DNA from: Apteryx mantelli
Taxonomy: Eukaryota; Chordata; Aves; Apterygiformes; Apterygidae
DNA length: 64,000 nucleotides
Direction: 5' to 3'
NCBI RefSeq assembly: GCF_036417845.1
Contig: NC_089981.1
Location: forward strand, 9,627,501-9,691,500
Shown here: positions 1 through 44,490 of the stretch, one piece after another
How positions within the stretch are numbered: the first letter of the stretch is position 1
Layout: each line of letters begins with the position of its first letter
Translations under genes and position numbers: made by a program
Notes under the pieces: generated by a model
Databases searched by the model: none
Told to the model about the DNA's origin: nothing
Seen by the model: only the letters and a program-made list of their open reading frames with translations

Positions 1-303
1 CTTGTTGTGTCCTACGTCATTATTTTGGTCTCTTTGAGGACACACTCTTCCAAAGGGCGTCTCAAAGCACTCTCTACCTGCACCTCCCTTATCACTGTTG
101 CACTTCTGTTCCTTGGGTCATGCATTTTCATCTATATGCGCCCTTCCACCATCTTCTCAGCAGACAAGAGTAGAACTGAAACTAAATTCAAGGTTTCATG
201 TAGCTCTCATCTTTCTTTGGAAATTGTCAGTCACAAGGATGTGAGCATATTGTCACCAGTCAAACCCGAGCCTTCGGGGTGGTATTGTGGTTTTTACCTT
301 TAG
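1..303 (+). pseudogene. Olfactory receptor, 3' end only (OR4-like, altered C-terminus)
   Basis: This is the C-terminal part of an olfactory receptor whose start lies outside the window. It opens in TM5/ICL3 and shows the OR hallmark of ICL3-TM6 ([10 protein letters not shown]). TM6 follows, then a short extracellular loop. After the loop motif ending FSADKS the sequence stops resembling an OR: the expected TM7 with the PMLNPxIY motif is absent and replaced by about 38 unrelated codons ending at 303. The inverted copy at 46640-47659 carries the same altered tail, so the damage predates the duplication. Loss of TM7 should abolish receptor function, so I call it a pseudogene. Confidence 0.85.
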
Positions 304-3293
304 ACACCTTAGAGCTGTGTAAGTCTCAGGTCTAGGCTTCTCCTGGCATTAAGAGGAACAACTAGGTATTTTGAGAGGTTATGCTTTCCCACTAGCTCCT
401 ACGAGCTTCGGAGAGTGGTGTCTGCTCACGTTTCTACACAAAAAAAGTGATGGTGGTGCTAAGCTTCCAAGAGAAAGCAAATCCTTCAGTGTGGCACAGC
501 ACAAGCAGGTTTCATCTCACATATATTGGTGTGCTGACATGAGGTGCCTCAACTTGAGAGAGCTGCTGAAGACAGCAAGAGACCTTTGAGGGGACTGCGA
601 TTCATTGCATGGTAAAATAGGAGCATGAGAGGAGCAGGATGCTGCACTAGGTGTCTGCCTTACAGTGAAGGGTGACATACACTGTACTAGACTTTCCAAG
701 GCTCCCAGGAACACTGATGGACACAGAGGCCGTTCCCCAATGCCAGGCATTCACTCCGATTTTCATCAAACTGTGCCAGCCTGGTGTCTCTGGGAACGCT
801 TCATTTAAAGGAGCTCTGCTAACACCTTTCCAAGGTCTTGACCTTATGTCATAGCTGAGCTTTATAATCTATCAATATAACCTAATTCCTAGCTGAACAC
901 TGAAAATTTCCCTAAAATTCTTAACAGTACTGTTCTTGATTCATCGAGTTTTCCTCAACTGTTTGCAGCAGGGAAACCCCCAAATGCCCCTACGACCTCC
1001 TGACTCTGGGCAATGATGTTCTACTGCAAACAGACTTACTTTAGCATTGCTGTCATGACAAGTGATTCAAGGCAGGGATTTTCCCAAATCTCCTCCTGCA
1101 ACTGAGATTTGGGGAAGGGAAGAAGAGGAACAGGATTCTGGATGGTGGATCAGAAGGCTTTCTTAGAAAAGCAAACTATAGATTTGAAGAGACAGCAGCT
1201 CTCTAACTTTTTAAATTCCCTAATTTTGTCTGGGTTTCTCGAGGTGGAGACTAAGGCATAGGTGAATGCAGGACTTAGATGAATGCGGGGCTTATGAAAA
1301 TCTGTTCTTTTTGATGATATTTGTCAGAAAGCATATTTGGGTTTGAGATTGTGATTCTTGATTGAAACATGCTGCCGGTTCTGCTGATGCTTAGCTCTAG
1401 ATGGCTTTGACTATCTTAAACATCAGCGCAGAGAGAGGTGTGCAGACATGACTCATTGCTGCGCAGGGAAGCTCTCTGATGACAACCTCCCTATCTTTTT
1501 CTGGAAGAGTAGTAGTGTACATTGCTCTTCCCAGAGACCTGTAAACATACACAGGAAAATAAAATGATGCCTGTGATTTCTTCTCAAGCTATTTCCTTCC
1601 TGTGAGCTGGGAGTCCACTGAAAGAGACAATTTTGGACACCTCAGAAATCTGGTTTAAAAATCTCACTTCTCTGTTCAAGATAAGGACAGCGCAACACTG
1701 ATACATATAAAAACAGTGAACTTCACATATCTGATGATACTTAATGATGAGAAACAAGAGATAAACCTTGAGCTTCAGCCTCTGCAGCAACAGAAAGATG
1801 ACAACTAGCAGCACCAAAAGGCTACATTTTCACATTCTTTTTCCTGCATTTCAGGACCGTCAGGCCAGTGGGATAACAGTGCATATAGTCCAAATGCTTT
1901 TACTACCCGTGCATATTCTAATTTTAGCGTTACTGAGATAAAAGGCTTCTGAGATAGTGATGGCCTTTAATCATCACCACTTGATCAAAATTCAGACTAT
2001 AACATACTGAAGATAAGTTTTCTCCCCAGCCGTGTGTCTTTGGGCAGAAATGATGATGTTTCGCAGTCATATCAGCTCTCTGTAAAATATGCTGGCAGCA
2101 GTTTGAAAGAAAGAGACTTGTAAAATCCTTCTTTAGGGTGCCATAGATGATCACAGGGACACAATCTTTGCTAGAGTTATGCACAGCTTTAAGGAGAGGA
2201 AGTCAGGGGAAATAACAGCCCTAACAGGCTTGCAGTGAAATGCAAAGGGAATCCGCGAGACCTCTTTCCATCCCCCTTTGACTGTAAACCTTATGCAGAG
2301 GCAGGAACTTCTCGCCTGTCTGAGATTAATTCTGTCACTTTCAGCTCAATAAAGATTTCAACTCCTTCTGCCAACTGAGAGACAGCATTTGTAAACTCAG
2401 CCAGAAGGGATGAAGCATCTATTAGCGACAGAACACCTATCCTTAGAGCTAGCTTAGTTGAATTGATAAAAGGATTCCAAAGCCTTTCCCAGCTTTCTCA
2501 TCTCCCAGAAATGATTGGTCATTTATTCTCAAAATCACATTGATGGCAGACATGTAGTTGGTAAGTCACCATCTTATTCCGTCATTCTTTTAAGTGAAAG
2601 AACACTGCAGCTTGATTAACTTTCAGATTATGTCCAATGTCCTTAAAATAACTACCGGTTCACTCAGTTGCCTCAAGTGGATTGCTGATATGTGGAGATG
2701 AAAAGCAGGAACAAGTTCTTGTTACTTCACAATGGTAGCAAAATTAGAAGTCAATCTTTTCTGCATTGCTGTAGTTTTTTCATGTTTCCAGGCAGAAGGG
2801 GAAAAAGGAGGTAGTAATGAGTGACAGAAGAGGGAGATTTAACAGGAGAGGGACAGTTACTTTCCCTAGTGTTTGGGGGGCAAAAACACGGGTGTGTGTT
2901 CTCCAAGATTTCCTTTCCAGAACTTCAGGTTCTGTGTGTTGCACTGGAAGAGGCTACTCCTTTCAAATACTGAAGACGTAGCAGAAATGGCCATAAATTC
3001 AAATCACATTGCTTTTCTCCTCTTGAATATCTCTGAAAGCTTTTTCTCATCTTGATGGACTGGTGGTTTTCCTACATGAGCAAACGTTCCTAAAAGAACA
3101 GAGAACTGAAACTCTGTGCCACGCACTCCTTAGGCAGGAGTCCTGTTTGTGCTTGGAACTTGCAAGTTAAAAGTCAGGATTCCTCCAGCTTTCAGCAGCA
3201 GAGGAACACAGTCTTTCAAGATAGAAGTTGCAGATACAACCAGTTAAAAGTCCACCTAAAATCCCTTCTAACAATTAAGTACCTTTCTGAATC
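304..3293. other. No gene recognised (intergenic DNA of block A)
   Basis: Only short shadow frames are present. The same sequence recurs inverted at about 42930-46639, where a solo LTR (44491-44996) and a 209-bp segment (45860-46068) interrupt it. The uninterrupted positions here are near 1738 and near 873. Confidence 0.7.
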
Positions 3294-4310
3294 TCACCCT
3301 TGGAAGCGGATCAAATCTTCCTTGGAAGTCCTACTCTTTGTACCAAGGTTTTGATAAATTTTCCCCAAACAAAGTTCTCTTTCTAACAAGTCTGCTGAAG
3401 TTTCTCTGATATGACCTAAAACTCTCCTCAGAGCATCCTTCACCTCCTTATTCCTTAGGCTGTAGCTGGTAAGATTCAGCACTGGAGTCACCACTGTAGA
3501 GAACAGAGAGGCCCATTTATCTCAGTCCAATGAGTAGCTGGATGTTGGGCTACTGCACATAAAAATGGTGCTGCCATAAAACAAGAAGAGAGCTCTCAGA
3601 TGGGAAGCACAGGTGGAGAAGGCTTTGCATCTGCCCTTGGAGGAGTGGATCCTCAGGGTGGTGGAGATGAGGTAGGTGCAGGAGATGAGAATTGCCAGAG
3701 ATGTGAAGATGCCACAAAACACACCAAAAATGTGAAGTACCGTCTCTTTGCTATAGGTGTCAGAGCATGAAAGCTGGATCCTCGGGGGATGTCACAGAAA
3801 TAATGACCGATAACACCAAAGTCACAGAAAGAGAATGTGAAGGTGGAGATAGTTTGCGCAAGTGCGTGGACAAAGCCAATGAAACAGGAGATGATTACCA
3901 TCTGTGTACAGGCTTTTGAGGACATGACAGTTGCATAAAGGAGAGGGTTACAGAGAGCCACATGCAGCCATATGTCGTTCCTGCCAGCAGGAGACACACA
4001 GCACTAGCCATGAGGAGACAAGTGAATAGCTGTGCCACACAGGCACTGACTGAAATGGCTCTCCTCACTGCTGAAGAGTTCACCAGCAACCTCGGGGAGC
4101 TAGCTGAGGAGTAACAGAAATCCACAGAAGCCAAGTTACTGAGGGAAAGGTACACAGTGTGTGAAGCCGGGGGATCAACCTTCATCTACATGATCCTTCC
4201 AAGATTCCCTATTAATGTGCTTAAAAAAAGCGGGTTACCTTCACCTCTTGGCTTTCTGTTAGTCCAGAGAGGATAAACTCAATGGCCACACAGTGATTCC
4301 TCTCAGGCAT
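3294..4310 (-). pseudogene. Olfactory receptor pseudogene (OR5/8/9-like), copy A
   Basis: A receptor reading frame runs from an ATG at 4308-4310 but is broken many times. The N-terminus (IEFILSGLTES) is OR-like. TM1 is mostly deleted, and an in-frame stop follows near the start of ICL1. TM2 is recognisable (SLSNLASVDFCYSS). The region that should hold the DRY motif is frameshifted, but CNPLLYATVMS just after it is kept. TM5, the ICL3 hallmark KGRCKAFSTC and the TM7 region ([17 protein letters not shown]) are spread over further frames, with a stop before TM7. The inverted copy at 41912-42928 shares the main lesions, so the gene was dead before duplication. Confidence 0.9.
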
Positions 4311-6030
4311 GTTGCTAGCACACTCATGCTATCTCCCGACAAGAAACTGGTTCAACACCTAGAAGTAATGGGAAACTGGCAACACACAATGGATTGTCTC
4401 AGTAGCCACAAGGAAGTACGGCGCATTTTCATCATAGCTTCTGACTAGACTTCTTTAATTACGCATTGAAATGACTTGTGATACAAGGGAGTACTGTTCC
4501 TATTTTTCAGGTGAGATAAGAAAGCACAGAAAGGTAAAATAATTTATTCGAAAAGCAACAGCAGCACTGTGAAACACAAGTCCTAGTCTGGCACTACAAT
4601 GGTTTTCGTGTGCCCTCTTTTAGTGTGCCTTTTTTAAGGAAAAAAGTCTGCTTTTCTTGAGGACATCTGTGGAGCACTCTTCTCTTCTCACTCGTGGCCA
4701 CGGTTGGGTGTACAGTATCATCCAAATGGCCCACTCCAAGGGCAATGGCCCACTTGTTCCTGAAGATACATGGTCTTGACACTAGTTCAGACATCATTCT
4801 TCCTGTATTGCAATCACCAATACCTTTTTTGCCTATTAGCTAACTCCCCCGGGCATTGGTAGCAGGGTAGTTAGAGCTCAGTATGGGCCACAAAGACCGT
4901 TAAAAGGGCAAAGCAGCCCCTGTTCAGCCTTGCTGAAATAGGAATATAATGGTTAGGCTGCAGCTGTGCCAACTTGCTAAGACCTGCCTTAATTACATGG
5001 ACCTCCACCACCCTGACCTTTGGGACTGCAACTTGTAAACATACAAATAACACATCCACATCCTGGCAGAAGAAAGTAAGAGTTTCCTCTCTTGAATGAA
5101 AGGTGCCAAGCACTAAATGGCAACAGCAGCAGGAAAACTCAGCTTTGCATCTTCCCAAAGAGGAGGAGATACCACAAGATCCTCCAGGTTTGGCTGAGAA
5201 AGGATTTCTCATTTGCTTGCATCCCCGTTGTCAAGGAAAAGTGGCCATCTTCTGCTCAGGAATAAATTGGGAAGAGTCACCAAATGAAATACTTTCCATT
5301 TAGAGGGGGAAAAATCTCATGCTAAAAGGGAAGGAATCCTGAACAAAAAGGGAATCACTCATCCCTGTAAAGGTTCTACCAGCTTCACCTCACATGAATA
5401 ATTATTGTTAATCTACTGGAGGTTACCAGTAACCTGGCTGACGCTCTCAAAGCGGAGTTCTTATCACGTGGGTGACTGAATGGAGGTTTCAATTCTTGCT
5501 GAGGTCTGTTTCTAGCATAGGCTTCAAGGTATTGCATATGTACAAAACTATTCTCTTACTGACCTGTTTCATCCAGAAAGGCAAGAGTAGATACTGTAAA
5601 TACCAAGCCAGTTTATTCCCCCCGTGAGCCAAATCTTCAGAAGTACTTGCCCATTTCAAGAAGCAGACAGCAGGATTAAAACCAGCCTATAATGGTTAGA
5701 TACACAGTTTAAGTGAGCAAAATGCTTACCCTGCTTAGATGCACAAAAGACCAGACTGCCTTTACACACTGAGTTAGCTTTGCATAGCTGGCTGTTGTTT
5801 ATCTCCAACCTACCCAACCTTTTCTGCCCTAAAGCACAGCAACTAGCCCAGTTAATTCTCAGAAAAGGGCTTCAATGAGCTTGCTATCAAGAGGTTGCTC
5901 TCTTCCATGGACTACTTGGGAAACTGAAGGAGGAAATTTCCCTCTCCTGCCCCAACGTGAGTGATCAAACACTGGATTAGGTGCAAATTTGTACAATCTC
6001 CATCTGTGCTGACATTTAAAATTCAGCTGG
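4311..6030. other. No gene recognised (intergenic DNA of block A)
   Basis: Short frames only. The inverted partner lies at about 40194-41911. I see no coding or RNA gene signal. Confidence 0.65.
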
Positions 6031-6136
6031 ATCGGGCCGGAGCAATCTGATCTGACTGAACCTGCTCTGAGGAGGAGGTTGGACTTGATGACCTCCAGAA
6101 ATCCTTCCCAACCTAAATGATTCTATGATTCTATCT
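6031..6136 (+). mobile_element. CR1 LINE 3' end fragment, copy in A
   Basis: The stretch GGTTGGACTTGATGACCT followed by CTTCCCAACC and the terminal repeated ATTCTATG octamers is the characteristic 3' end of avian CR1. It is heavily 5'-truncated. Its counterpart in A' lies on the minus strand at about 40091-40195, so this CR1 predates the duplication, unlike the long CR1 at 37463-39959. Confidence 0.9.
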
Positions 6137-6353
6137 GCAGATTGAAAATGATCTTTTTGATCTCTAAAATGAAGAAATAGGCCTACCTTCCTTGCATGAA
6201 GGTGCGAGATATTTTATGCCGTATTGTTCCCAGAAATAAACTCTTATTTCAAAAGCTACAAACATTTCATGTACCTTCGTAAGAGTGAGTAGCTTCCTTC
6301 TTCACTTCAAAGACATCTTACTGAAACAAATCAGAAGATTTATCTAAATAGAA

Positions 6354-6839
6354 TGTTGGGGCCCTTGCGGTGCTTCAGAACAATAATCTATATGAGATAT
6401 AGAGCATGGAACTAACACTGTTTAGGATTAATTTCTTAGCACAACTTGCTTAGCATTAGTAGCTAAATTTGCTGAAGCCTTAGGCCTCAGGCTATAGCCA
6501 CTGCTACGTGCTTTGAAGTAGTGCACCAAGGACACTGGTGCAGCTGGAAAAGATACATCGTGAGAAAGTACAGATAAACTAGCAGTAGCCAGTGGGAACC
6601 AAGGTTAAGGGTAAGATAGCTTTGCTAAATAAGTAGCAAGGTACAAGGCATGATCGCTGCGTGTGTGATCAGTGCCATGATTGGCTACCTGTGACATAAT
6701 CTGCATGGTGATTGGCCTAGCAAAGTGTACGACTGCACAAACATATATAAGATGGGCAAATTGCCGAATAAAGTTGGAATTGAACCTGCATTCTGTGAAT
6801 GCGTATGATTCTTTCCCGTCACTCCCGTGGACCGCGACA
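6354..6839 (+). repeat. 5' LTR of the provirus (486 bp)
   Basis: It begins TGTTGGGGCCC and ends GACCGCGACA. The 3' two-thirds matches the LTR at 12471-12860 closely, but the first ~170 bp of U3 has no clear match there. The segment just upstream of the TATA box also differs (6710-6740 against about 12728-12775). The TATA box is at 6742-6749 and the AATAAA signal at 6767-6772, an unusually short interval typical of avian retroviral R regions. Confidence 0.9.
6742..6772 (+). promoter_or_regulatory. LTR core promoter and poly(A) signal
   Basis: A TATA-like CATATATAAG at 6742-6751 is followed by AATAAA at 6767-6772. The pair marks the U3/R boundary region of the 5' LTR. Confidence 0.7.
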
Positions 6840-6841
6840 TC

Positions 6842-6859
6842 TGGTGACCCCGACGTGAT
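6842..6859 (+). other. Primer binding site, tRNA-Trp type
   Basis: TGGTGACCCCGACGTGAT starts two bases after the LTR end. It corresponds to the tRNA-Trp primer site used by avian sarcoma-leukosis-type viruses, which is my main reason for calling the element alpharetrovirus-like. Confidence 0.85.
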
Positions 6860-7039
6860 ACTGCGAAGGAGAAGCTGGCTTTGCTAAGAGTTCAAGTAAC
6901 GGGGGTGGATACCGCCCGGGAGGCTCGTGCCTGGGGAAAACGAGCCTGGCCATCCGAAGAAAGACGGAAAAAAGAAAAGTCGTAGCTACGCAACTCTTCT
7001 GACCGGTGAGTCAGGCGCCCTTGTGAGGTGGCGGGTGGT

Positions 7040-9050
7040 ATGGGAAACGCTGTATCAGCGGTAGAAAAGGCCACGTTAGAAAAATTGTTACAAGTGGCAG
7101 CACAAACAGAGCGACAGGTGGAGCGCCAGGCGCTGGTGGACTTGCTGTGGTGGGGAAGGTGGCGCGGTTTGTTACGGGAGTCCAGCCAGGTCTTTAGCGC
7201 GGAAGCCTGGAAGAAGGTTGGGAAGGAACTGTGGGAATCCATCCAGAACGGAGAAAAAGAGGCCAGGCGTCTGGCCAAAACATATCGAGACATGCGGCTC
7301 ATGATCGAACAGCTGCACGGGGAGGCACAGGCGACTGCTGCCATACGGAGGGCGCTGCAGGCGGAGCCCCCTGCGGCGGCACTTTCGCCGGGGAGTGAGG
7401 AGGAGGGAGCGGAGTGCGCGGAGGGAGCGGAGTGCGCGGTGCCCATCTTTGATACACCATCCTCGGGGGGGCCCTCGGTGATAGATGAGCCCTCCCCGCC
7501 ATGTGCGGCATCTCTCTCTAAGCTAGAGCGGGAGGCTTGGGGGACTGGCACAGGATATGAGGACTTGCCACCGTACAAGAAAGGGGACGTTGCTGATGCC
7601 TTTGCCGCCCCCCCTGAGCCGTCCGCTCCCCCTATGGAAGTGGATCCGGCCACTGTGCCTTTACCTGAGGAGAAAAGCGTTGATCTGACTGAATATTCAA
7701 AGAAAATGGAGGAACTGTTGGAGGAAATTAGGAGGTTGGATAGGGGGTCGAAAAAGGCGCATGTGAGGGAGGCGTATAAGAAGGCGCATCAGGCCATTGT
7801 GGACGGCCTGAAAGCGGTTGAGGAACGGTTCTCCGGGGATCCTGCCGGCGGATCCCAGGAGAACCAAGAGATCGCCCCCAGAGACTGGGTGATTACCAAC
7901 GTACTCAAAGGGACGTGGTCCCTTGAGCAGGCGGAGCAGCATCTGCAAGCCTGGAAAAAAAAACCTTTAACACAAAAGGAGTATCGAACGATTTTGGACC
8001 GTTTACCGAGAGCACCGGAGAAAGCCCTGCCACCTAGGGACCCTGACTTTGACATGGCAAAAAGGTGGCGCGGGATCATTCAGAATGCTGAACTGGTTGG
8101 GGACATGCAGTTTTTCCCTATAGTAGCCCCGGTGGTGACCACGGGTCAGGGACAGACGAGGTGGGAGCCTCTGGATTGGCAAGTGGTAACAAAGCTGCAA
8201 CAGCTGGTAATGCAGTACGGGATAAACAACCACCAAGTGCAAGCGCAGCTGAGAGCCCTGGTGAAATATCAAAACTTGGTGCCGAGCGACATTCGCGCCC
8301 TTGCCGAACTGATTTTGGGGCCCACCTCTTTGCTGGTGTTTTTGAATAAGTGGCAGGAACTGCAGAAATTAGTAAAAGAAAGCGGAGTTCAATCTACTCA
8401 TACTATCACATTCCTAGAAGTGCTTTCTACTACGTATATGATGACTCCCTGTGACTGGAAAGCGTTAATGAAAATGGATTTGACTAACACTCAGTATGCT
8501 ACGTGGCTTTCGGACTTTCGAGACAAATGTCCCGCACAGGCGGTTGATAACTTGAATAACGGACAAGGAGTAGGCTATAACCAATTGGCTGGAGAGGGGC
8601 TGCATGCGGATCCGGCAACCCAGATGGAATATAATAGAGAAACATATGAGAGGATTGCAAAGTTCGTTTTACAAGCCTTGCGTGGACTGACAGGTACAAA
8701 CGCCAATTCAAGTTTGTCATTTGCAAAAGTATTACAGGGACCTACAGAACCGTACCCTGCATTTGTTGATTGGTTGTATGCAGCAACTGAGCGGCAGATT
8801 GAGAATGAGGAGGCTCAGGCACTGTTGCTGAGGCAGCTCGCTTTTGAGAATGCGAATGCTGACTGTGCGAGAGCCTTGCAGGCGATTAAGAACCGAGCAA
8901 CTTGCACTCTTGCAGAGATGGTGCGGGCTTGTCAAAATGCAGGCTCTAAACACCACAGCACCGAATCCCTTGCTGCTGCACTGGCAGCTCAGATGTACGA
9001 GCAAGGGGGAACAAAACAAAACAAAAAAAAGAGGATGTTCCCGTTGTGGG
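7040..9050 (+). pseudogene. gag: Endogenous retroviral gag (matrix to nucleocapsid), truncated at the first zinc knuckle
   Basis: The reading frame starts at ATG 7040, with glycine at position 2 suitable for myristoylation; the upstream in-frame GTG at 7028 is unlikely to be used. A basic N-terminal matrix-like region is followed by an acidic, proline-rich linker holding a PSAP late-domain motif at about residues 194-197 and an LPPY nearby. The capsid region includes the major homology region at about residues 566-585 (QGPTEPYPAFVDWLYAATE). The frame is open for about 660 codons. An A-rich run (9011-9030) then shifts frame: the first zinc-knuckle CX2C (9036-9047) is in another frame. Immediately after it the viral sequence is replaced by VAPA-derived DNA. 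The gag frame runs on by chance to a stop at 9257-9259, so its last ~70 codons are not Gag. Confidence 0.92.
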
Positions 9051-9337
9051 GCAGCACCGCGCTGGGGGGGGGCGTGATGCGGCGGCCGCCCCTCAGCGCC
9101 AGCACCAGCACCGAGCCGCTGCCCGGCCTCCCCGCCTCCCCCTCCCGCTCCTCCCCCCCCCACAGTAGCGAGCGAGCGAGATGGCGGCCGCCAGGGCTCT
9201 GGCTAAGCACGAGCAGATCCTGGTGCTCGATCCACCCACCGACCTCAAATTCAAAGTAATGCTACAACCTTTTGACTATGATCCTCAGAGATAATGGCTC
9301 TAATTCTCTTCCTTCACTTCTTGTTGTAATTGCAGCC
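9049..9337 (+). pseudogene. VAPA: Captured VAPA cDNA fragment inside the provirus (5' leader, N-terminus, two internal pieces)
   Basis: A GC-rich leader (9049-9180) unlike the surrounding viral DNA precedes ATG 9181. The encoded start contains AKHEQILVLDPPTDLKFK, the N-terminus of VAPA, the ER membrane-contact-site protein that binds FFAT motifs through its MSP domain. It is followed directly by VMLQPFDYDP, which in VAPA lies about 50 residues further on, at the end of the MSP core. From 9287, in a different frame, comes RDN and then SLPSLLVVIAA, the start of the C-terminal membrane anchor. No intron sequence separates the pieces, so the source was spliced mRNA. The MSP core, the coiled coil and the end of the anchor are missing. 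The frame from 9181 stops at 9292-9294 after 37 codons, out of phase with Gag. No poly(A) tail or target-site duplication surrounds it. Retroviral sequence resumes at about 9339. VAPA rather than VAPB is favoured by both end motifs. Confidence 0.86.
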
Positions 9338-9338
9338 A

Positions 9339-11145
9339 GTCCAACTGCAATTAAACGATATTGTCATGCTTAATGACCTACTAAAAATATTAGGAGCCAT
9401 TAATTGGCTCTGACCAGTGCTAGGACTTTCCACGGGACTGCTACACTCCCTTTTTGAAAAGCTCAAAGGGGACACCTCCCTAACTTCCACTCGAACTTTG
9501 ATACCTGAAGCGAGAAAGGCACTCCAGTTATGTGCCCGTGCTCTGGAGGAATGCCAGAGTTGGCGACATGACTTCTCATTGCCTTTTTATTTAGCTCTGA
9601 TTGCCAACAGCTTCCAGCCTTTTGCAGTATTATTTTGATGGGATACAAAAAGCACAGATCCCTTGCACATTTTGGAATGGATTTTTCTGTAACATACTCC
9701 ACCGAAAACCTTATGGACTCTTACAGAAATGTATTCTAAGCTTATCATTAAGGGCAGGGAGAGACTGCAAACCATGAATGGCTGTGACCCTGAAGTTATT
9801 TATATCCCAGCCACTACAGACAACTTGAACTGGTTAATTTCAGAAGATTGGGGTTTTCAAGTAGCCCTTGCTGATTTCACTGGACAGCTTTCCATCCATT
9901 ATCCTCGGCACAGGTTATGGGCAGAGGCTGGCAGCCTACCCCTAGTCACTGTCGCCCTGTCCCGGTTCCTGGTTTAACTGTCTTCACCGATGCTTCGGGC
10001 AGATTTAAAAGGGCTGCTATCATGTGGCAGGACCCTGTCACGCAACAATGGAGAACAACAGTACGTACACAGGAACGAGGGTCGGTACAGGTATTGGAGA
10101 TGGTGGCCGTCCGTATGGCTTTTGAACTTTGTGCCAATGAACTTGTAAATGTTGTTACTGATTCCTGTTATGCCGCGGGCCTTGTGCAAAGGTTGGAGGC
10201 CTCCTTTCTCCACGAGGTCTCCAATCCATTGCTCTGTGCAGAACTTTATGCTCTTTGGACTCTTATTAATCACAGAAAGCATGACTTTTATGTTTTACAT
10301 GTACGCTCACACACGGACCTGGCCGGACCCATCGCTGAGGGAAATCGACGTGCTGATGCTGCAGCCATGCCAGCGGTGGTACTCAACCTTCTGGAACAAG
10401 CCAGGCTGTCTCACTCCTTCTTTCATCAAAACACCTGCTCGCTGAAGAGGCAGTTTCAGCTACCCATCCGGCAGGCCAGAGACATTATTTTTGTCTTGTT
10501 CAGACTGTCAGTAGTTCGCCCCAATGCCTTCAAAGGAAGGGGCGAACCCTAGAGTTTTAAAGGCTAATGAGTTATGGCAAACAGACGTTACGTATGTTTT
10601 AGAATTTGGTCATCTTAAATATGTACATGTCACAGTCGACACCCATTCTCGATTTTTGTGGGCCACCGCCCACACTGGTGAAAAGGCTAGGGATGTGACT
10701 CGCCATTGGCTTGCCTGCTTTGCGGTCTTGGGGGTGCTAACAACCATCAAAACGGACAACAGCCCAGCCTATTGCTCAGGCTGTGTGCGTCAATTCCTCA
10801 ATACATGGGTCATCTCTCATGTAACAGGCATACCCCACTCCCCAACCGGCCAAGCCATTGTTGAGCAGTCACACCGCAGCCTGAAAGACATGCTACAAAA
10901 ACAAAAAAAAAGGGGGAGACACTGCTCACCCCACAAGAATGACTACACAAAGCGTTATATGTCCTTAATTTTTTGAATTGTGATGAAACAGGTCATAATA
11001 ATTTCGAACGTCAGCAAGCCACAGACATGAGATGAATACAAAAGCCCCCAGTTTTGGTCAAAGACTTGGTTTCCAGCCAATGGGTGGGACCAATGGAACT
11101 GATAACTTGGGGGAGGGGAAATGCTTGTGTTTCTACAGGAACTCG
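9339..11145 (+). pseudogene. pol: Endogenous retroviral pol remnant (RT thumb/connection, RNase H, integrase)
   Basis: Pol resumes in the RT thumb (NDLLKILGAINWL). In that frame (9339-9977) there are stops at 9411, 9636 and about 9690. RNase H follows in another frame (about 9965-10360), with its acidic residues in TDAS, LEMVAV, VTDS and RRADAA. The integrase zinc finger is split: its HX3H (SHSFFH) is in the RNase H frame and its CX2C (10497-10508) in the next. A TAG follows at 10512. The integrase core (to 10976) keeps all three catalytic acids with DD35E spacing: WQTD, KTDNSPAY and IVEQ. A C-terminal DNA-binding-domain remnant, frameshifted, overlaps the start of env. Protease and the RT palm with its YxDD box are absent. 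Inactive. Confidence 0.9.
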
Positions 11146-11151
11146 GTTACG

Positions 11152-12573
11152 ATGGGTGCCATCGCGACGTGTATGACCTTATGTTGCCTCATCCTCGGAG
11201 CAACAAGCACGCCCGTCGGACCAGGCACCTGGAAACGTGGCAACATCTGGGTGACTCTTGCAAATGTAACCAATACGGACACCTTGTTTATCAATGACGA
11301 TGCCATCAGACCCTTTCCACACTTGCTTGACCGGACTTCCTCTTGATATACAGCACATGGGGTCTCTTTACAATGATACTGTGTTAACAAATTGTAGTGC
11401 GCCAGGTACACTTCAGCCCAAATGGCGGTGGTGTGATGCAGAATGGAGACACAGGAGTGGAATATTTCCACATGGTATAACAATATGCTCAATGTACACA
11501 ATTTTCCTGCCTTGCCACTGCAGCCACAAGAACTTGACTTATTGGGAATTACACAGGCTGCAGTCTGCTTTTATCTAAATTATACTGCAAGGGCACCTAC
11601 CAAAGAGGGTGACGTTGATGTATCTCCCTCAGGCATTTATGCCAATACACCTGTATGGTGTAATCACACCACCTCAGGTCAAATAACACCTAGACCACAA
11701 CCCATAGGGTTGGCTGCTAAGATATTCTTAATTTGTGGTCAGAGAGCCTGGAAAGGCGTACCAGGTAAAGCTGTGGGGGGACCATGTATCTTTGGACTTT
11801 TGACGATGTTTCATCCCAAAAAATTCTTAGTTAATGGAACTGTCCACACTCGAACAAAGCGATCCACCCACAGCTTTACGTCAGGTTGCGATAGTAACGT
11901 AGAATTTTGGAATCCAGCAGAACGTATCTTGAGTAGTATTTTTGCAGGAATAGGGACTGCTCATGCTTTATCACAGCTTAACAGATTAGGATGCTGGCTT
12001 GCAAAAGAAGCAAATGCTACTAGTACTGCTTTAAGTGCCTTATTAACAGACGTAGATTCAATTAGATATGCCACCTTACAAAATCAGGATGCAATTGACT
12101 TTTTGCTATTAGCCCAAGGCCATGGCTGTCAGGACTTTGAGGGAATGTGTTGTATGAACCTGAGTGATCATTCTGAGTCAGTACATACAAGCATTGCAAA
12201 ATTGAAGGAGTTAACAAAACAACTGCAAGAAGACGATGGTGAAAACTTGTGGGGACTGTTTGATTGGTTGAATATGCTTGCTATAGGGCCTTGGTTAAAA
12301 CGCATACTGATTCTAGGACTTATTGTAATTTTTATGTTTGTTGCAATACTAATCTGTGTACCATGCTTGTTGAGCTGCATGCGGAGGATGCTTGACCGGA
12401 GTATGAAGCAAGTCATGACCCTGCAGATCCATACAGCCTTAACCCTTCAAGTAGTAAAAGAAGGGGGAGATGTGGAGGGCCATGACAGGGTTAAACTGGT
12501 GGAAAGTTGCAAGCAGCAAGCAACAGGAGTCTCAGACAAACGTACCCAAGGACACTGGTGCAGCTGGAAATGA
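11152..12573 (+). pseudogene. env: Endogenous retroviral env, SU frameshifted, TM subunit open
   Basis: The likely start is ATG 11152, followed by a hydrophobic signal peptide (MTLCCLILGATS). An upstream frame from 11032 is also open and adds a longer leader. A splice-acceptor-like TTTCTACAG lies just upstream. SU stops at 11344-11346, continues in another frame, then returns to the first before 11443, so two roughly compensating frameshifts break it. From 11443 the frame is open for 376 codons. The furin-type site RTKR is at 11851-11862. TM then shows an internal fusion loop lying between two cysteines, heptad-rich helices, a CX6CC motif (12127-12153) and a hydrophobic membrane span (ILILGLIVIFMFVAILI). 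The internal loop plus CX6CC fits alpharetrovirus-type Env. The frame runs through the polypurine tract about 34 codons into the 3' LTR. Confidence 0.9.
12455..12470 (+). other. Polypurine tract
   Basis: AAAAGAAGGGGGAGA runs directly up to the TG that opens the 3' LTR, the expected position of the plus-strand primer. Confidence 0.85.
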
Positions 12574-12860
12574 TACATCCTGAGAAAGTACAGATAAACT
12601 AGCAGAAGCCAGTGGGAACCAAGGTTAAGGGCTAGACAGTTTTGCTAAATAAGTAGCAAGGTACAAGGCATGATCGCTGCGTGCGTGATCGGTGCTATGA
12701 TTGGCTACCTGTGACATAATCTGTATGAACCACCAATCAAGGGCCAAAGCGCCGAATACCTGTACCTATAAAATGGGCAAATTGCTGAATAAAGATGGAA
12801 TTGAACCTGCATTCTGTGAATGCGTATGATTCTTTCCCGTCACTCCCGTGGACCGCGACA
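12471..12860 (+). repeat. 3' LTR of the provirus (390 bp)
   Basis: It begins TGTGGAGGGCC after the polypurine tract and ends GACCGCGACA. It is 96 bp shorter than the 5' LTR. Its U3 has a different 5' part and a different promoter-proximal segment containing ACCAATCAAG (CCAAT-like) and TATAAAA (12777-12783); AATAAA is at 12798-12803. The R/U5 part is nearly identical to the 5' LTR. Confidence 0.9.
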
Positions 12861-13053
12861 AGGGAATCCCTGCTAGTCACAGAGTTTACAATGCCATTCC
12901 AGTCAAAACATGAACTTTCAGCTTCTTCCTAATTACTGCAACAGCTAAAACCAAGCTTTTCTTCAAAAGGGAGCTTTCAGTAAATTTTCCAAAATGGAAT
13001 TATACTGAGAGAGACTTGATTTTCTCAGCTCCTGAGAAAATGTTACCACAGTT

Positions 13054-13989
13054 CTACACCTCACCCTTTTCACTCCAGACTTTTCTATTCCACAGTTTTC
13101 TCATGGCACTTTTCATCTCCTCATTTCTCAGCGTGTAGATGAACGGGTTCAGCATGTGCGTGATGACATTGTAAAACACTGCTACCCTCTTGTCCTCTGA
13201 GAGATTGCTGGATGGGCGTATGTAGGTGAATGTGGATGGCCCAAAGAAGAGAATCACCACAGTAATGTGGGACCCACAGGTGGAGAGGGCTTTGTGCCTC
13301 CCTTCGGACGTTCGCCTTTTCAAGGAAAACAAAATGACAATATAGGACGTGACCAGGATGAAGAAAGTGACCACAGAAATCATTCCACTATTGGCAACAA
13401 CAATGATGCCCGCAACATAGGTGTCTGTACAGGCCAGTTGTAGTAGGGGGTGGACATCACAGAAGTAGTGGTCAATTTTGTTGGGGCCACAAAAAGGGAG
13501 GCTAACGGTTATGAGGGTCTGCACCAGGGAGTGCACAAAGCCCCCCACCCATGAACCCATCACCATCCAGCCACACACATGCCTGGTCATGAGGGTGGTG
13601 TAGTGCAGGGGTCTGCATATGGCAAAGTAGCGATCACAGGCCATCACTGTGAGGATGAAGATCTCAGCGCAGCCAAAGAAATGAAACCCAAATAGCTGTG
13701 CCATGCAACCCCCAAAGGAAATGGTTTTCTTTTCAACAAGGAAGTCAGCAATCATTTTGGGAGCTGTGGCAGAAGAGAAGCAAAGATCTGCAATGGACAG
13801 GTGGCAGAGAAAGAAATACATGGGGGAGTTCAGACGCTGACTGCTAACTACAGTGACAACGATGAGCAGATTTCCTGCCACAGTAACAATATAGAAGAAC
13901 AAAAACACCACAAAACGTATTTTCTGCACCCCTTGGTTCTTTGAAAGGCCCAGAAGAATGAATTCCTTCACACTGCTTACATTCTCCAT
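13054..13989 (-). CDS. Olfactory receptor, OR4-like, full length (copy B)
   Basis: The protein is 311 residues, the normal OR length. I start at the MENVSSVKEF methionine; the longer upstream frame only adds 29 non-OR residues. Seven membrane segments are readable. Hallmarks include the N-terminal FILLGLS, GN in TM1 (AGNLLIVV), SPMYFFL after TM1, the paired extracellular cysteines, KRRTSEGRHKALSTC in ICL3/TM6, and a TM7 with NPFIYTLRNEE. Three deviations stand out: MACDRY instead of MAYDRY at the G-protein motif, THMLNPF instead of TPMLNPL in TM7, and F for the usual L in NPLIY. The paralogue at 51248-52183 has the canonical forms of these. It is possibly functional but weakened, and class II by its sequence. 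Single-exon coding is typical of ORs. Confidence 0.93.
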   Translation of the reverse strand: MENVSSVKEFILLGLSKNQGVQKIRFVVFLFFYIVTVAGNLLIVVTVVSSQRLNSPMYFFLCHLSIADLCFSSATAPKMIADFLVEKKTISFGGCMAQLFGFHFFGCAEIFILTVMACDRYFAICRPLHYTTLMTRHVCGWMVMGSWVGGFVHSLVQTLITVSLPFCGPNKIDHYFCDVHPLLQLACTDTYVAGIIVVANSGMISVVTFFILVTSYIVILFSLKRRTSEGRHKALSTCGSHITVVILFFGPSTFTYIRPSSNLSEDKRVAVFYNVITHMLNPFIYTLRNEEMKSAMRKLWNRKVWSEKGEV

Positions 13990-16900
13990 GTTGGTCAGCT
14001 GGGTGGCAATATGCAATATACAGCTTATACACCTGGGAAAACAGACTGACACATGATTCATCAGCATTTTTTTCATTATTAATAATGAGTTCTATTTCAG
14101 AAGTGGATACAAACCAAGAAAGATATAGCATTAGTATTAAGCTTATGAAGTGTTTAGTTTCTGTCATGTATTTTTTTTTAACGGCTATTTAGTTCTCCAG
14201 AGTACAAAGCTTCTGCCATGGCTTTGGTGGCACAGAGATAGGTGCACTCTGTGATATGTTCCTTAATCCTGGTCCTCCAGGATCTTGAAGGACTGGCTCC
14301 ATGGCTGATAGCCTTCCATGCACTAAGGACAAGGCCAGAGTGTTCACCTTGGGCACTACAAGGCAGATAATGCAGCATGTTTGCCCTCAGGGGAGACAAA
14401 GTCCCTGACAGCAATCTTTGTAAAATGGGTGTCTTTAAGAATACCTGGAAACATTTCTCAGAATGATGATTTGTTTTATAAGTACACATGATCTTTGAAT
14501 TCTTGTTTAGAAGGGAAATGTACCCACAGGCAGAGAAAAGAACTCTCTTGTGTATAGACATTTGGAAACGTAAATATGAAATGTCACAGGCGGAAAAATG
14601 AGTTCTGGGAAGGTTATCTATCATGGAGGGGAAAAAAATTGCACATATGACTTAATGGAGTATTTCACATTGTTCTAAATCTCAGCATTGTTTCTATCAG
14701 AGGAAGGAAGAATGAAAGACTCTTGTGAGATCTTCTGTCCCAGTATTGTACTGATTTTACCTAGTATGATTTTTGATACACTCTGCGTGATCCTTTCAAG
14801 GGTTAACTTAGCTTAATGAAGCTAATCTAACTAAACTCCTTCAACAGCCAGTATAAGTCTCTCTGTAGGCTGATTCAGAATGACTAAATTAGGGTCCTTT
14901 GCAGAACCCTTTTTTCCTCCATTCACTATGAGGAGCTTAAGCAAATTAGCACCACCAGGTTAGAATGACCTTTAGAGAATAATCCCTTTTGGTGCCTGAA
15001 AGTAGCTCAGAGCTTTTTGTATGCCATCTACCTGTTTTAGGTTATGACTGAGCTTCTTGTCCCTAGGCATTTCTACATCCATACAGTTTCTCATTCAAGA
15101 CAAGGTCACATTCCAGCATAAACATGGGACTTCTTTGGTTCACCCTGTATTCCACCTACAACCCATCGAGCATTACGTGTCACTAATAAATGAGTAGCCT
15201 ACATCTTTAGAAAGAGTGTAACGTTTCTAGCTTGCCATTATGCACCCAGACCACCAGAGTTCCTTTGGCAAAGAAGTCTGGGAACCACCAGATTAAACTC
15301 TTCACAGAGAGTTTAAGGTCAGCCAAAAGCAGGCACTCTTTTAATAAAAATATCCACTGTATGGGCTTCCTTCTAGTATCAAAACATTCCCCATCAGCTG
15401 GTGTTAAAATGCACCATTTTAAGTCCTGCAGAATTACATCACAACCAGGTCTTCTCATTTGTCTTGGTGATCTGCGAGCAAATCTGTGGAATGATTCAGT
15501 TAAGCCAAGTTATCTACCAACTACTTCAATCTGCAGCATAATCAGAAACTCTCGTGCAGGCACAAAGTGATGAAGCATCCACAGGAAACACTGAAACTGA
15601 GAAAAGCCAAGATTACTTTCAAACCCCCAAAGTGAAGCCGAGAGAGGAAGTGGGCAAAGTTAGGGACTTTTCCTATGCTTACAGTTGTACTTACACTAGA
15701 TGAAAGTTTTTCAAGCAGAAGGGTAAAATTTACATGGATGGTTCCTTTTCAGATATTTCTACAAGGAAAAGGATCAGTAAGAACAACGGGAGGTCAGTTT
15801 CTCCCTCGTCTTACCAAGTCGTGATCCTTTCTACCCCTCTTCCTTCTACTGAGCAACGACATAGACTTCTCAACAAAATAAATGACAGGGATGAAATGAG
15901 CACACCTTTATGGCTGTGCAGTACCCAGTCCAAAAGAAATAGCTGGGCTCCATCCAAGCCAGAGCATGACTGGAAGCATACCACAGCAATCGCAGGGCCA
16001 TATTTAGGCAGTCAGAAAGGAGTGACCAAGAGAGAAATGGTCAGGGGAAACTATATGCCTGAATACCAGCAGGTGGCAAATTCCTGAGCTAGAAACATGG
16101 TGTGCATCTACAAAAGGACCGATTCACAATTCAGACAGCTCGACTGTGTATCTTGCTTGATAAAGTCCTTTCTATCACCACCAAACTGCATTTAACAAAC
16201 TACCCATCTGTCTGATCTCATCTCATCACCTTAAGTCATGTAGGCACCTGTACCTAAGCTAGGCATATTACACCTGACCAGTCTACTTGTAGATGTGATG
16301 AATCATGTGCTGCAGGTACCCGTTTCTCACTGCTGACTCCAAGAGGATTACTAGAATGACTAATTCAGTAGAGGATTGCCACCAGTTATGGCTTATCTCT
16401 TCAAGTGCCTTTGCAGGGTTAGACCTGAGCTATATGACATAATGCAATCAGCTGCAAAATAAAATGAATCTCATGTGTACTCTTAACATCTCAAAAAGGG
16501 TGAGAAATTGCACCATCTCCTTACTGCATGCATTCTTCCCTAAAATCTCAGGTGGTTATGGGAAACAAAAGAATAATATCGAAGCAATCGAATCTGCGGC
16601 TGTGGAACTAGCTCTGTATATGATTCTAGCCAAAGATAACTAGAGACAGTTGATAACTTCAGTGGAAGTTCCTTTCTGTATTTTCACATTTGTTCAAAAA
16701 GAAAGGAAAGGGAAGAGGAAAGCAAAGCAAAGTGAAGCAAAGCGAGAAGCCAGAGAAGCTGCAAAACTTACCTCGCCTGTGTTTAGAGATCTAATATTTT
16801 GTGTAAGGGCTGTACAACCTTATTTCCTCAACTTCTGTCTCCCCTGGTATGAATGTGTTAGAGCACAGCGCCTTTAAAGAACATAGAATGGCTTCTGGAA

Positions 16901-19900
16901 AGCTTCCAAAACTTGCTTAGGAGGTGGCTGTTAGTGTATAATCCAATCCCATCTAATTTATTACTTGCTTTCGTGTGTCACAAGTGTATCTTGATGTTTC
17001 CTGCCTGTGTGAGAAGTGGTTTAATAGGCTGTGTGGATGATGTGACCTGGGTGTGCTGAATGATGCTTTCATATCCCAGCAGCTGCAAAAAGGGCTGAGA
17101 AGAAAACCATTTAAGTACCAACCTTTAACCCTCTCCCAGGAAATCTTCCACCTGCAGGGCTCTTGGGGCTGGAGGAGGGAGGGGTGGAGGCTTGGTGAAG
17201 GGAAGGCGTGAAAGAAAGGGGCAAAGGAGGAGAATGAGTTCTGTCTTGACTGAAAAGTTTAAGTAAATATATTTTAAAGAAACAGTTGTCAGTCAATGCT
17301 TTTCTAATGATATCACAAAGGCATTTCAGGGTTTCTCCATAAGAAATAACAGTCAAAGGAGTAGCTGAGTATTCAACTGGACAAGCATATGCATGGAACT
17401 ATCCAGTTAACGCTTCTCGGAGTTCTTCCTTACTCCAAGCTGATAGTTGTATGGATTTCCCATGTGTAAAGGGCCATTAGGTCCACTGCTCTGGCTTCCT
17501 AGCATTGTGAATGCTAAAACAGTCCATTTGTAATCTAGATATTTCCTTTCCTTTTTTCACTTCTGTGTATTCCAAAAAACATGTAAAAGAGAAATCCTCA
17601 TTAAAGGAAAAAAAGAAAGAAACCTCAAGCTGTAGGAAGTGTCACCATCCTCCAGGGATGGTCAAGAATTCCTATCACAGGAGTCTTTTAAGGACAGGTT
17701 GGGCTCATTTCTCTCAGGAGTGGTTACGATGAAGTTTTTATAGGGACAGAAGATGTCCTGGGTGACCTCTTGATGACCCTCCAAGTCCTATCTCACCAGA
17801 AATTTCATCACTGGAAATCCAGTGAATAAAGCCTCTTTGCAAGAATTTGCATGTTTTAACAGAGGTCAGTGAATTACCAAGTCAGTCAAAAAAATCCTTC
17901 ATTTACAAATTGGGAAACTGAGGGAGGACGTCACCTATTTAATGCCAATGGACGGCAGCGAATTTAACCCTGACTTAGTCACTCTAGGCTCTTCTGCGCA
18001 AAAAAATGAATGTCTCTGGAGGCAGATGCATCTGATCTACCTCAGAACTGATTTTAGGATGCGATTAGGTGTGAAATGGACATCTAGCTTTTAAACAAAA
18101 TAACTTAGGGCGGACAAATCTCACTGTCATGATGGGCCCCATCTTTCTTAACCTGAGCAGCTGCAGTCAAAGGTGAACCTATGAAATGAAACAAACGAAG
18201 CAAATAGACATGCTGATTTATAGCAGCATATCATCTCAACCAAGGCCCAAGTCAAATTCATCATGGCTCTGAACTCTACTGTGTATTTGTAGCTTATGCC
18301 TCATGGATGTCAGGAAAGGCATTGTCTCAGCTACTGTCCTTTGCTTTGTTTTGCTGAAATTTCTGGAAATGTGGAATGGCCTGATAACAATATAGTTAAT
18401 GTCTCCATCTCCTCTGCACAGAATGCCAGCGATCTCCACAGTGAAAACAGAAATCCTACAGTTAATGAGAATAAATACTGGTAAAGAAATGCCTTGGTGA
18501 AAATAGTCCCCTAACTTAAATGTCCTTTTACTGTCGCCTGGAGTCTTGGGCAGCTTAATGAGGGTTAACAGTAGTCACTACAGGAAACAAGAGTATTGGG
18601 TAAGAAGGTAAACAAAGTCTTACAGTCTTTGGGAAAGGAAGAGGAGCAACAGATGACAGAAGCCAGAGATCAGGCCAATAGTATCTGGCCTGCTAACCTA
18701 GTATGAGTCAGCCTGCCACTTTCTGTACCCAGTGGCACACATGGCAGCAACTTGGCTAGCATCACATTCATGTCCTTTTGTTTCCCTAGCCAAATGGACT
18801 ACCAGAGGTGACTTAATGCACAAGTCCAAATGAAGAATTGCTGCTACCTCCTGCTGCAAAATAATTCCCCGTAGGGGTGTGCTTAGTGCCAGCAAAGGAG
18901 AAAGGTCTTTTCTCCATTTTCATTCCACTTACCTTGGCACCTGGCTCTGGACATCACTATGGCAGCAGGTCATGCTTGGGGAGCTGTGATTTGGACAAGG
19001 AGGGACTGTGCATGGTGAGATGAACGAGGTTTTGCAGCTGGATAGTGAATACTGGCAAGGGGTTTGTTGATAGAGCCATGGTGAATGTGTGTTGTGAATT
19101 TGATGATGGGCACGATGGGGACAAGGCACGGTGTGGAGGGAAGTTGTGAAACTTGAAATGGATGCTACATGGCCAGGGGCTGTCTTCATGGAGTTGGTGA
19201 AATCAGAAGTGCCTGAGGTGTGGTGAGGGACTGTGCTGAAAGACAGTATGAAGTGGCAGGTAATACTGTGGGTGCTAAGCTGTGTTGAAAGACCTTGTGA
19301 CATCAGAAGCGGGCATCATGTATTGAAGGGTAACACTAGGAGAGGTTGCAGAATTGTGGCTGCTGAGGTGTCATAAGGCTGGCTACAGAGTTCAAGGAGA
19401 CCCTACCGTAGAACAGGTTCTGTGAAGTAGTAGGGGACAATGTATGGTGACAGCTTGTGTTGGGAGAGGTTTTGAGGTCAGAAGAGGACACTCGGTAGTG
19501 ATGAATGTGCTAAGGGAGGTTCTGCAGTGACAGTGGACCCTTGGGGAATGAGAAGTTGTGTTGAGGGAGGTTGTGAAATCAGCAGCAGGCATTATGGAAG
19601 AGGACTGACCATTTCTCAATCTGTGTGACCCTGAGCAGCAGTAGGCCATCTTCTGCAAGGTCTGTGAAACTAGAACTATGCTGCTGCTATTTGATGCAGG
19701 CTTTCATTAATTAGTTTCATTAAGGAAGTAGATTCAGGTTTTGAATATGCTTTGGAGACAGGAGACCAATCTTACCAAAGTCTTATAATAGATGTACGAG
19801 AACTGTGAGTGACTTTTTCAGCATGCTTTTGCACTATCTATGGAAGTCATAAGATGGTTACTTGACTTGCATTATATGGAACACAAAGTTTTTGATGATT

Positions 19901-30691: not shown

Positions 30692-32945
30692 TCTTCCTCA
30701 GAACCTGAACTCAAAGACCATATGAACCACAAATGAACTTTTGTAAGCATGGAAGTAAAGCTCTTTACTTTTGCAGAAGTTTCTCAGGCAAAGAAAATTG
30801 CTGAAGACGAAAAGGTAAATCTGCAAGTGAAGCAAGCGTTTGGTTCACAAGAGAATACGTAAATTACTGAGCCCACAGACATGAGGGGCAGAAGTTGGAA
30901 GGTCTGGTTGGAAAGATGATCCAAAACCGAAAACAGCAGCAACAGGGAAATACACAGGAGCTGTCTGCAAATTCTTCAGACATGAAGCACCTTTACAAGT
31001 GCTCCTCTCATGCACCTTCCCAGTGCTCAAAGACTCCAGTAGCCATGACTGTCCACCTCCAAAACACTCCTGTCAAACCAGGTTGGCTCCACAGTGCCAA
31101 GGACCACAGGTGTGACAGCGGCAAAGGAGGAAAGAGTTATTGGAGCGAGGACCAAAGGTCCTATGACCACAGCTGACAAGGAACTAGTAACACGGGGGTG
31201 GACGCACTGCCGGGGAGCAAAGATTCTAAACGTGCAAATTCTGCAGCCCTGACAGCGCCATATTATGGAGGGCTCCCACAGGCAGCAATTCCCAGCAGCA
31301 CCGAGGACTTCCCTAGGGGCACAGCGGGAATTCCCAGCCTACCGAGTTAGTCCAAAGAGCTCTTGTGGCCAGGAAGAAACGCTCCTCTCCAACGACCTGC
31401 TGGGAAGGTCACCAAACAGCGTCTCGCATTGTCCCACCACCTCCTCTCGCCTTCTCCTGCTCGCTGCACAGCAGCTGCTCCAGAGCAGAGCAGGGCAGGG
31501 CAGAGCAGAGTCGTGGCGAGAGCAGCCCCAAGCACCTGGGCTCAGCTCAGGCTCCCAGGGCCATATGGGGAGGGCGCAGCTGTTGCTGCGATGCACTGCG
31601 TGATGCCCCAGGCCATGTCACAGAGGGGCTGCAGGGACCCCTTGACCCCCCAGGTGCTGCCAAGGTGGGCCCTGCAAGGGCAAGGGGAGCTGCCTGGGGC
31701 ACTTTAGGGAGCTGCCCCCACCTCACTGCCCACTCCCCAAGGACAGCAGGGGGCACGGGGAGCCACAGGAGGGGTCCCCCAGGCTGGGGCTCACCTCAGG
31801 CATGCCACTCCCACAATGTCCCCAGATCAGGGTTGCGGGGCTACAACTGCTGGCAGGGAGAGGCTCTGCTCAGGAAGGAAGGCCTAAATGAGCAAGTGGA
31901 TGAATAAAGAGGAAGACTGTGACTGCACTCTCTCAGCCTCTGGGGAGGAAGGGCCAAGTCCTAGCTGTTGCTTCCCTAGGCCACAGGCATGGAGATGGCA
32001 TGGCCTAGTGAAGGAGCAGAGGGGTTTGCTCTCTCACCCTGAAAACTGTATTAAGGCAAATCCACCATGAATGCCTCCAAACGGTGTCAAAGCCTGGGAA
32101 AATCAAAAAAAAAAAAAAAAAAGCGCTTATCGGAAAGGTCATTTCTTTCCCTCGGCACTAAATTCTCTCTGCGTTAGAGATGACGTCTGTGAATCCTGGT
32201 CTTGGGGTGGGTTCTAACTGGGGGGGTTTGAAGATGTGATCCTAACAGGGCAAAACCAAAAGAAGGGTGGCGCCAGGTGGAGATTATCACTGGAGCCCCA
32301 AAAGCCCATTTCCTTTCTAAAGTCACTCGTTTTGCAGAAGAAAAATGTGATGCTCAGATGGAGCCTGCAACACTCGCAGTGCCATCCCACCGCTTGGGTT
32401 CCCAGTGGAGGAGACTGAGAGCAGCTTCCCGTCTACAGCATGACAACGCAGTGTCACACACCCGAACGAGGCACAGGAATAATGGCTGCACGTAGTACAT
32501 TCTGGTGACCCTCTCTGGTTACTTCTCAGTCTGCCCTGAGGGTGGTCCGAGGAGCATCCGAGGGGACCAGAGCATCAGCACATGCATGGAGAAGGGATCT
32601 AAGGTCACACAAAGGAGCCTGGAGTGTGCCAAGGAGGTGATCGAGGAGGTTGCAAGGCACACTACTGCACGCCCCCGGAAAGCAGACAGCGATGCAATGG
32701 CTGCATAGAGCCCATGGCTTTAAGCTGGCAGGAAGGCAGCGCCCTCAGGCTGCCAGCACCTCGGCTCTGCCACACCAGGTCTGGGCTGGTGGCAGCCACA
32801 CTCCCAGCATGCCTTGGGGCATCCCCACGGCATGCTGGGAGCAGGGCTGCTATGGGGCACCATGGCTCAGCCCGGGGAGATGCGGCCCCTGCCCCCATGG
32901 AGCCCCGGCCAGCTCTTTCCCCCTGCCTCACAGCCCCAGCCCAGA
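30692..32945. other. No gene recognised
   Basis: A moderately GC-rich stretch (about 31430-31830) carries long chance frames on both strands. A run of about 18-20 A residues sits at 32105-32123. No homology is recognised. Confidence 0.6.
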
Positions 32946-39959: not shown

Positions 39960-40090
39960 TTTGTAGCTTTTGAAATAAGAGTTTATTTCTGGGAACAATA
40001 TGGCATAAAATATCTCGCACCTTCATGCAAGGAAGGTAGGCCTATTTCTTCATTTTAGAGACCAAAAAGATCATTTTCAATCTGCAGATA

Positions 40091-44486: not shown

Positions 44487-44490
44487 ATCA

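Follow-up and report, generated by a model that had tools for sequence, protein, structure and literature searches.

The window, the whole 64,000-nucleotide stretch of the Apteryx mantelli contig NC_089981.1 that was analysed, contains a broken provirus bounded by two LTR copies at about 6526–12860 and adjoined by an olfactory receptor gene on the minus strand (13054–14091). Its order is 5′ LTR, primer site, gag with two capsid matches, VAPA, RT thumb and RNase H, followed by integrase, env pieces, purine tract and 3′ LTR. The primer site is the one we take to belong to tRNA-Trp. The individual features are as follows.

6526–6839, plus strand: 5′ LTR in its present extent, ending in CGCGACA (LTR–LTR BLAST)
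6842–6859, plus strand: primer binding site, tRNA-Trp-like (sequence just after the LTR end)
7040–8344, plus strand: 5′ gag with MA, spacer and the start of a first capsid, alpha-like (Gag identity, PDB, Gag_p24 profile)
8345–9022, plus strand: second capsid, with a restarted NTD and a CTD, beta/ERV-K-like, frame unchanged (Gag_p24, Gag_p24_C, PDB)
9031–9052, plus strand: putative remnant of the first NC zinc knuckle, CSRCG, truncated (sequence, frames)
9053–9126, plus strand: GC-rich stretch, perhaps more VAPA 5′UTR (the UTR test failed here)
9127–9180, plus strand: VAPA 5′UTR (upstream extensions of P0070 and P0076; tblastn 71.2 bits including exon 1)
9181–9255, plus strand: coding part of VAPA exon 1, MAAARALAKHEQILVLDPPTDLKFK, with one change relative to bird VAPA (tblastn)
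9256–9285, plus strand: start of VAPA exon 3, VMLQPFDYDP, fused straight to exon 1, exon 2 being absent (tblastn, exon-boundary evidence)
9284–9337, plus strand: 3′ coding part of VAPA, LRDNGSNSLPSLLVVIAA, the start of the membrane anchor, in a different frame (tblastn)
9330–9338, plus strand: possible overlap of VAPA and RT thumb, TTGCAGCCA (thumb profile; the final A is taken from the next codon of VAPA, Ile)
9339–10976, plus strand: remaining pol, with RT thumb/connection, RNase H and integrase core (ORFs, Pfam)
11002–12573, plus strand: env in pieces with shifting frames, an avian gp85-like SU end and a gamma-type TM (ORFs, Pfam)
12471–12860, plus strand: 3′ LTR, with the purine tract before it and AGGGAA after it (LTR BLAST, flank comparison)

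The bird VAPA protein P0067 (VAPA of Excalfactoria chinensis, 249 residues) served as the reference for tblastn over the window at E ≤ 1, and the whole protein gives exactly three matches. Residues 1–25 match 9181–9255 with 24 of 25 positions identical (49.7 bits, E 1.6e-9), residues 66–86 match 9223–9285 with 12 of 21 identical (32.0 bits), the true part being only VMLQPFDYDP at 9256–9285, and residues 218–237 match 9278–9337 with 18 of 20 identical (37.4 bits, E 1.5e-5). A chance match was rejected: with 500 shuffles of the VAPA protein, the best score anywhere in the window was 30.0 bits, short of the 32.0 bits of the weakest piece. A phmmer search of the PDB with 9181–9291 returned nine sequences, comprising four of VAPA and five of VAPB or VAPB/C, with a best E of 5.2e-13. 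When searched separately in the window, VAPA residues 26–71 gave chance-level matches only (best E 0.11) and residues 87–217 gave none at E ≤ 1. The last piece reads RDNGSNSLPSLLVVIAA, identical to all nine bird proteins inspected (eight species); the same residues are RENGSNP in both turtles and RDNVTSP in one human entry, a comparison that covers 12 of the 120 proteins of the VAPA set, and RDNGSNP is found in other entries of the set. Together with the Gag homologues, these residues point to a bird as host. The segment is VAPA, its pieces follow the order of the gene and lack introns, and a stretch of the virus is missing in its place. The earlier note, which had reported VAPA peptides in order and without introns at this position, is thereby borne out by the tblastn matches and shuffles, with the limits of the pieces refined. 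The intronless host-exon homology is flanked on both sides by retroviral sequence inside the LTR pair, with a Gag_p24 match upstream and RVT_thumb, RNase_H, rve and env matches downstream.

The VAPA ORF comprises only 37 codons (9181–9291) because the frame changes at the joint between exon 3 and the 3′ part, and it matches no Pfam family, so that the captured ORF does not encode a recognisable protein domain. No poly(A), stop codon or VAPA 3′ end is present at the insertion. The scraps are a passenger rather than working cargo, and no VAPA protein is encoded. The proposal that the virus carried functional VAPA fails on the two internal deletions, the frame change at the last piece and the 37-codon ORF.

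At least 54 bases of VAPA 5′UTR precede the ATG. The alignment of 9127–9180 to the upstream extension of the predicted bird VAPA P0070 was equalled by none of 2000 shuffles, and that to P0076 is less clear, with 98 of 2000 shuffles as good. For 9049–9126 the homology fails: 797 of 2000 (P0070) and 136 of 2000 (P0076) shuffles equalled it, and in the frame control P0070 scored 41 in a wrong frame and 31 in the right one, and P0076 scored 35 and 40. The GC-rich leader described earlier as VAPA 5′UTR thus holds for 9127–9180 and is not upheld for 9049–9126, where both the shuffle and the frame controls failed.

The joints were placed by protein and profile comparison rather than against bird VAPA DNA. 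At the first joint within VAPA, LKFK is followed directly by VMLQPF. Of the 117 proteins in the VAPA set that have PFTDVV, 29 carry residues other than LKF(K) directly before this motif, which suggests the 5′ boundary of exon 2 at this point; such variants are what alternative first exons, or gene models starting at PFTDVV and perhaps in part incomplete, would give. The 3′ boundary is suggested by a 12-residue insert that lies exactly between VS and VMLQ in three of 120 VAPA proteins, all of one ground squirrel. VMLQ begins at residue 71 of VAPB (7x14_A), and the splice form of this paralogue, VAPC, is described as sharing with VAPB exactly the first 70 residues (PMC3398895). Exon 2 so bounded comprises P0067 residues 26–76, which is 51 codons, and skipping it therefore preserves the frame. 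The exon-1/exon-3 join occurs in none of the 120 VAPA proteins, and the exon-2-less form is for this reason one that we infer. Overall, these comparisons support a first joint at exon boundaries, with exon 2 skipped, and hence a spliced RNA as the probable source. The second joint, from exon 3 to the 3′ part, lies within exon 3 and shifts the frame; judged from the codons, one to three bases (CCT, 9283–9285) may be shared there.

At the 3′ viral joint, addition of 9330–9335 raised the RT thumb profile score from 22.9 to 25.9 bits, aligning these bases to profile positions 1–2, although for a piece of this length both scores fall short of the 27.6-bit cut-off, and the 3-bit gain is modest and has no control. 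The thumb piece 9414–9635 exceeds the cut-off with 35.8 bits, and the thumb noted earlier is confirmed by the Pfam profile from 9330. TTGCAG together with the following CC(A) gives TTGCAGCCA, which may be read in either way, as VAPA or as the beginning of the RT thumb, a possible overlap of 6–9 bases. The 5′ joint between virus and host is uncertain and is placed near 9050, after CSRCG, within about 10 bases. The CSRCG remnant (about 9036–9050) is in a different frame from the gag ORF; its earlier assignment as the first zinc knuckle is plausible, although no Pfam family matched 8832–9074. Downstream, pol (9339–10976) has in-frame stops ending at 9413, 9638 and 9692, and its open frame shifts two or more times.

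The viral sequence around the insert is of mosaic make-up. Within one open frame, 7964–8344 matches positions 1–61 of the Gag_p24 profile and 8345–9022 matches positions 11–125; the latter piece also matches Gag_p24_C. Among 7996 candidates scored, four Gag homologues were found, from one contig and three passerines, and three of these four (P0001, P0002 and P0003) were scanned and have one Gag_p24 match each. The first capsid (8030–8344) is 50–56% identical to the four related Gags and the second 22–26%. Direct comparison of the two copies is weak, being equalled or bettered by 20 of 1000 shuffles, and the duplication rests on the profile match. All six PDB matches of the first capsid are capsid or Gag entries, one of them named Rous sarcoma virus and the rest presumably from the same virus. 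For the second capsid, a Gag-Pro-Pol entry and named HERV-K Gags lead among the best 60 of 139 matches. The restart looks like an in-frame non-homologous recombination in which an alpha-like copy is followed by a beta/ERV-K-like one, as judged from these alignments.

A similar mixture is found downstream. The best four PDB rows for the integrase score 160–163 bits, and we take them to be mouse mammary tumour virus; the next rows score at most 83 bits and include RSV/avian sarcoma virus, both among the best 60 of 125 matches. Against NCBIfam the integrase piece gave transposase-type matches below the cut-off only. The RNase H piece has five matches, of which the best is named Polymerase (44.1 bits) and one other XMRV; we assume that the former is HERV-K and that the unnamed ones are gammaretroviral. 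Env combines an avian gp85-type domain (PF03708, E 7.1e-12) with a gamma-type TM (PF00429, E 1.3e-11). Among the marks of an alpharetrovirus, the gp85-type env is present and an alpha-type integrase is not, and Gag has an alpha-like first capsid beside a beta/ERV-K-like second one. A plain alpharetrovirus does not agree with the HERV-K-like second capsid, an integrase nearer to the beta type and an RNase H whose best match we assume to be HERV-K. In the viral contig collection, queries with Gag, VAPA, env, integrase and the exact 3′ joint found no relatives.

Over 271 aligned bases the two LTRs show 13 differences, excluding an unlike block near the TATA box (6703–6749 compared with 12723–12770), and elsewhere they are 94–97% identical. 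Roughly the first 75 U3 bases of the 3′ LTR are missing from the 5′ LTR, and the U3 starts differ. The unlike block and the differing U3 starts suggest gene conversion or recombination between proviruses. The right flank (12861–19677) has a paralogue at 51055–57864 that is 96.8% identical over 6798 aligned bases and begins with AGGGAA; at 51055 it represents the unoccupied site, the provirus being absent exactly from the point that corresponds to the LTR end. On the other side, the flank 1–6263 is an inverted copy of 39959–46942 in three pieces. AGGGAA matching the right end is absent from 6001–6700, so either rearrangement on the left followed integration or two proviruses recombined to give the present one.

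The segmental duplication surrounds olfactory receptor genes. Elsewhere in the window, a proline-rich open frame at 32909–33304 contains direct repeats, each unit about 84 bases long. A minus-strand frame of 528 codons at 38455–40041, located at the edge of the inverted duplication, appears by eye to be a LINE (CR1-type) endonuclease/reverse transcriptase, and an open frame at 61625–62578 resembles by eye a rhodopsin-type receptor of the MAS-related type.

We consider it probable that template switching brought VAPA mRNA into the virus and that most of NC, the protease and the RT fingers and palm were lost in the process. A class II avian retrovirus would have packaged a spliced, exon-2-less VAPA mRNA beside its genomic RNA. 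During minus-strand synthesis the switch away from the viral template would have taken place where the RT thumb begins, at a stretch of up to nine bases (TTGCAGCCA) that may be common to virus and VAPA. From there the reverse transcriptase would have copied VAPA toward its 5′ end, jumping once more, out of the membrane-anchor region and into exon 3, before it re-entered the viral RNA at the first gag zinc knuckle. Most of NC, the protease and the RT fingers and palm would thereby have given way to host RNA, at most about 290 bases of it. The direction and order of these jumps are those that we infer. As the product has no protease and lacks most of RT, the enzymes of a helper virus would have been needed for completion and integration. 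Template switching between co-packaged RNAs fits the spliced template, the replacement of viral sequence, the lack of the VAPA 3′ end and a stretch that may be shared at a viral joint, and the exon-boundary joint and the 3′ overlap are both supported. The view that VAPA from spliced RNA replaces rather than interrupts NC-PR-RT stands, and the viral stretch is absent; as to recombination during reverse transcription, the 3′ joint shows a possible overlap typical of template switching, with the gain in profile score modest and without a control.

The possible 3′ overlap is also what repair after integration might leave, if a break had deleted NC to the RT palm in a resident provirus and been filled with reverse-transcribed VAPA RNA. 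No target-site duplication was noticed around the segment, and the internal jump and the single known copy of the VAPA-bearing provirus would agree with such a filler. However, a rare event would have had to strike a provirus, and one that already bears another recombinant joint of the reverse-transcription type, the in-frame capsid restart being a further non-homologous joint in this element. We regard repair of this kind as unlikely. Some other late rearrangement is conceivable as well, given that the left side of the provirus is rearranged.

DNA-based transduction is well known for src-type viruses, and on that precedent a provirus upstream of VAPA could have suffered a deletion fusing gag to the VAPA promoter or leader, after which the read-through RNA would have been spliced and packaged and pol regained by a 3′ jump. 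This would account for a spliced segment that starts upstream of the VAPA ATG. Splicing leaves the internal jump in exon 3 unexplained, however, and no VAPA promoter or intron DNA was recognised by protein and profile comparison; this route as a whole appears quite improbable to us. A LINE-made processed pseudogene of VAPA inserted in the provirus would likewise be intronless and could include 5′UTR, but it is disfavoured by the absence of the VAPA 3′ end and of poly(A), the segment stopping inside the membrane-anchor part, and by viral sequence that was lost rather than interrupted, so that we give it very little credence. An assembly or library chimera, for which the segmentally duplicated and partly inverted surroundings might speak, is scarcely credible given the biological-looking joints (exon boundary, shared-sequence overlap) and the absence of any N in the window.

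From the ATG at 7040, gag reads through 739 codons before it meets the stop at 9257–9259; it leaves the zinc-knuckle frame after an A run and continues through the VAPA 5′UTR and exon 1. Pol and env, by contrast, are broken. Under neutral decay the chance of the first 1980 bases from 7040 remaining open is about 0.01 (0.0004–0.09, the range of the divergences tried). This estimate was made post hoc, using how far the LTRs have diverged and how often indels occur in the paralogous flank, and it assumes LTRs equal at integration, an assumption that the unlike LTR block calls into question. A very doubtful reading of this is that the VAPA leader now forms the tail of a preserved Gag, with MA-CA, no NC and a host-derived tail in an alternative frame, domesticated as a particle-interfering factor. 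If so, capture of a host mRNA would have produced an NC-less Gag that was kept during the decay of pol and env.

The VAPA provirus is probably a case of retroviral capture of host mRNA. Known captures tend, in our view, to have been noticed because their cargo was useful and retained. A useless VAPA scrap whose joints can still be read, as an exon skip, an internal jump and a possible overlap at the viral joint, displays the capture process before selection. The provirus around it also holds a capsid that starts anew, of another retroviral type. Should further copies have identical joints, a recombining lineage of bird viruses would become datable and traceable.

In the acute transforming alpharetroviruses (src, erb, myc), intronless host sequence mostly replaces viral genes through recombination with host RNA, most of these viruses need a helper, and their cargoes are growth genes expressed as proteins. 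The VAPA provirus shares the intronless host sequence in a viral genome; unlike them, its VAPA could be expressed at most as a 37-codon ORF, and its backbone is alpharetroviral only in part. In retrocopies that LTR elements make through template switching, a segment derived from mRNA lies between LTRs and its joints show short overlaps. The VAPA provirus resembles them in the first respect and possibly in the second, but here the segment is a small patch within an otherwise recognisable provirus. The nearest published case that we found is that of the crocodilian CrocERV29 and CrocERV31, described as having captured KIT-ligand and nectin3 host mRNA, respectively (Chong et al. 2014, PMC4299795). 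In that account, deletion of a viral coding domain is the usual outcome of mRNA capture, env is replaced by nectin3 in CrocERV31, and both captures are multi-copy, retain long ORFs and are reported to be under purifying selection (PMC4299795). Measured against these descriptions, the VAPA provirus is likewise an endogenous retrovirus with a captured host mRNA, whereas it is known from one copy with three scraps and no usable ORF, and it lost NC-PR-RT where CrocERV31 lost env.
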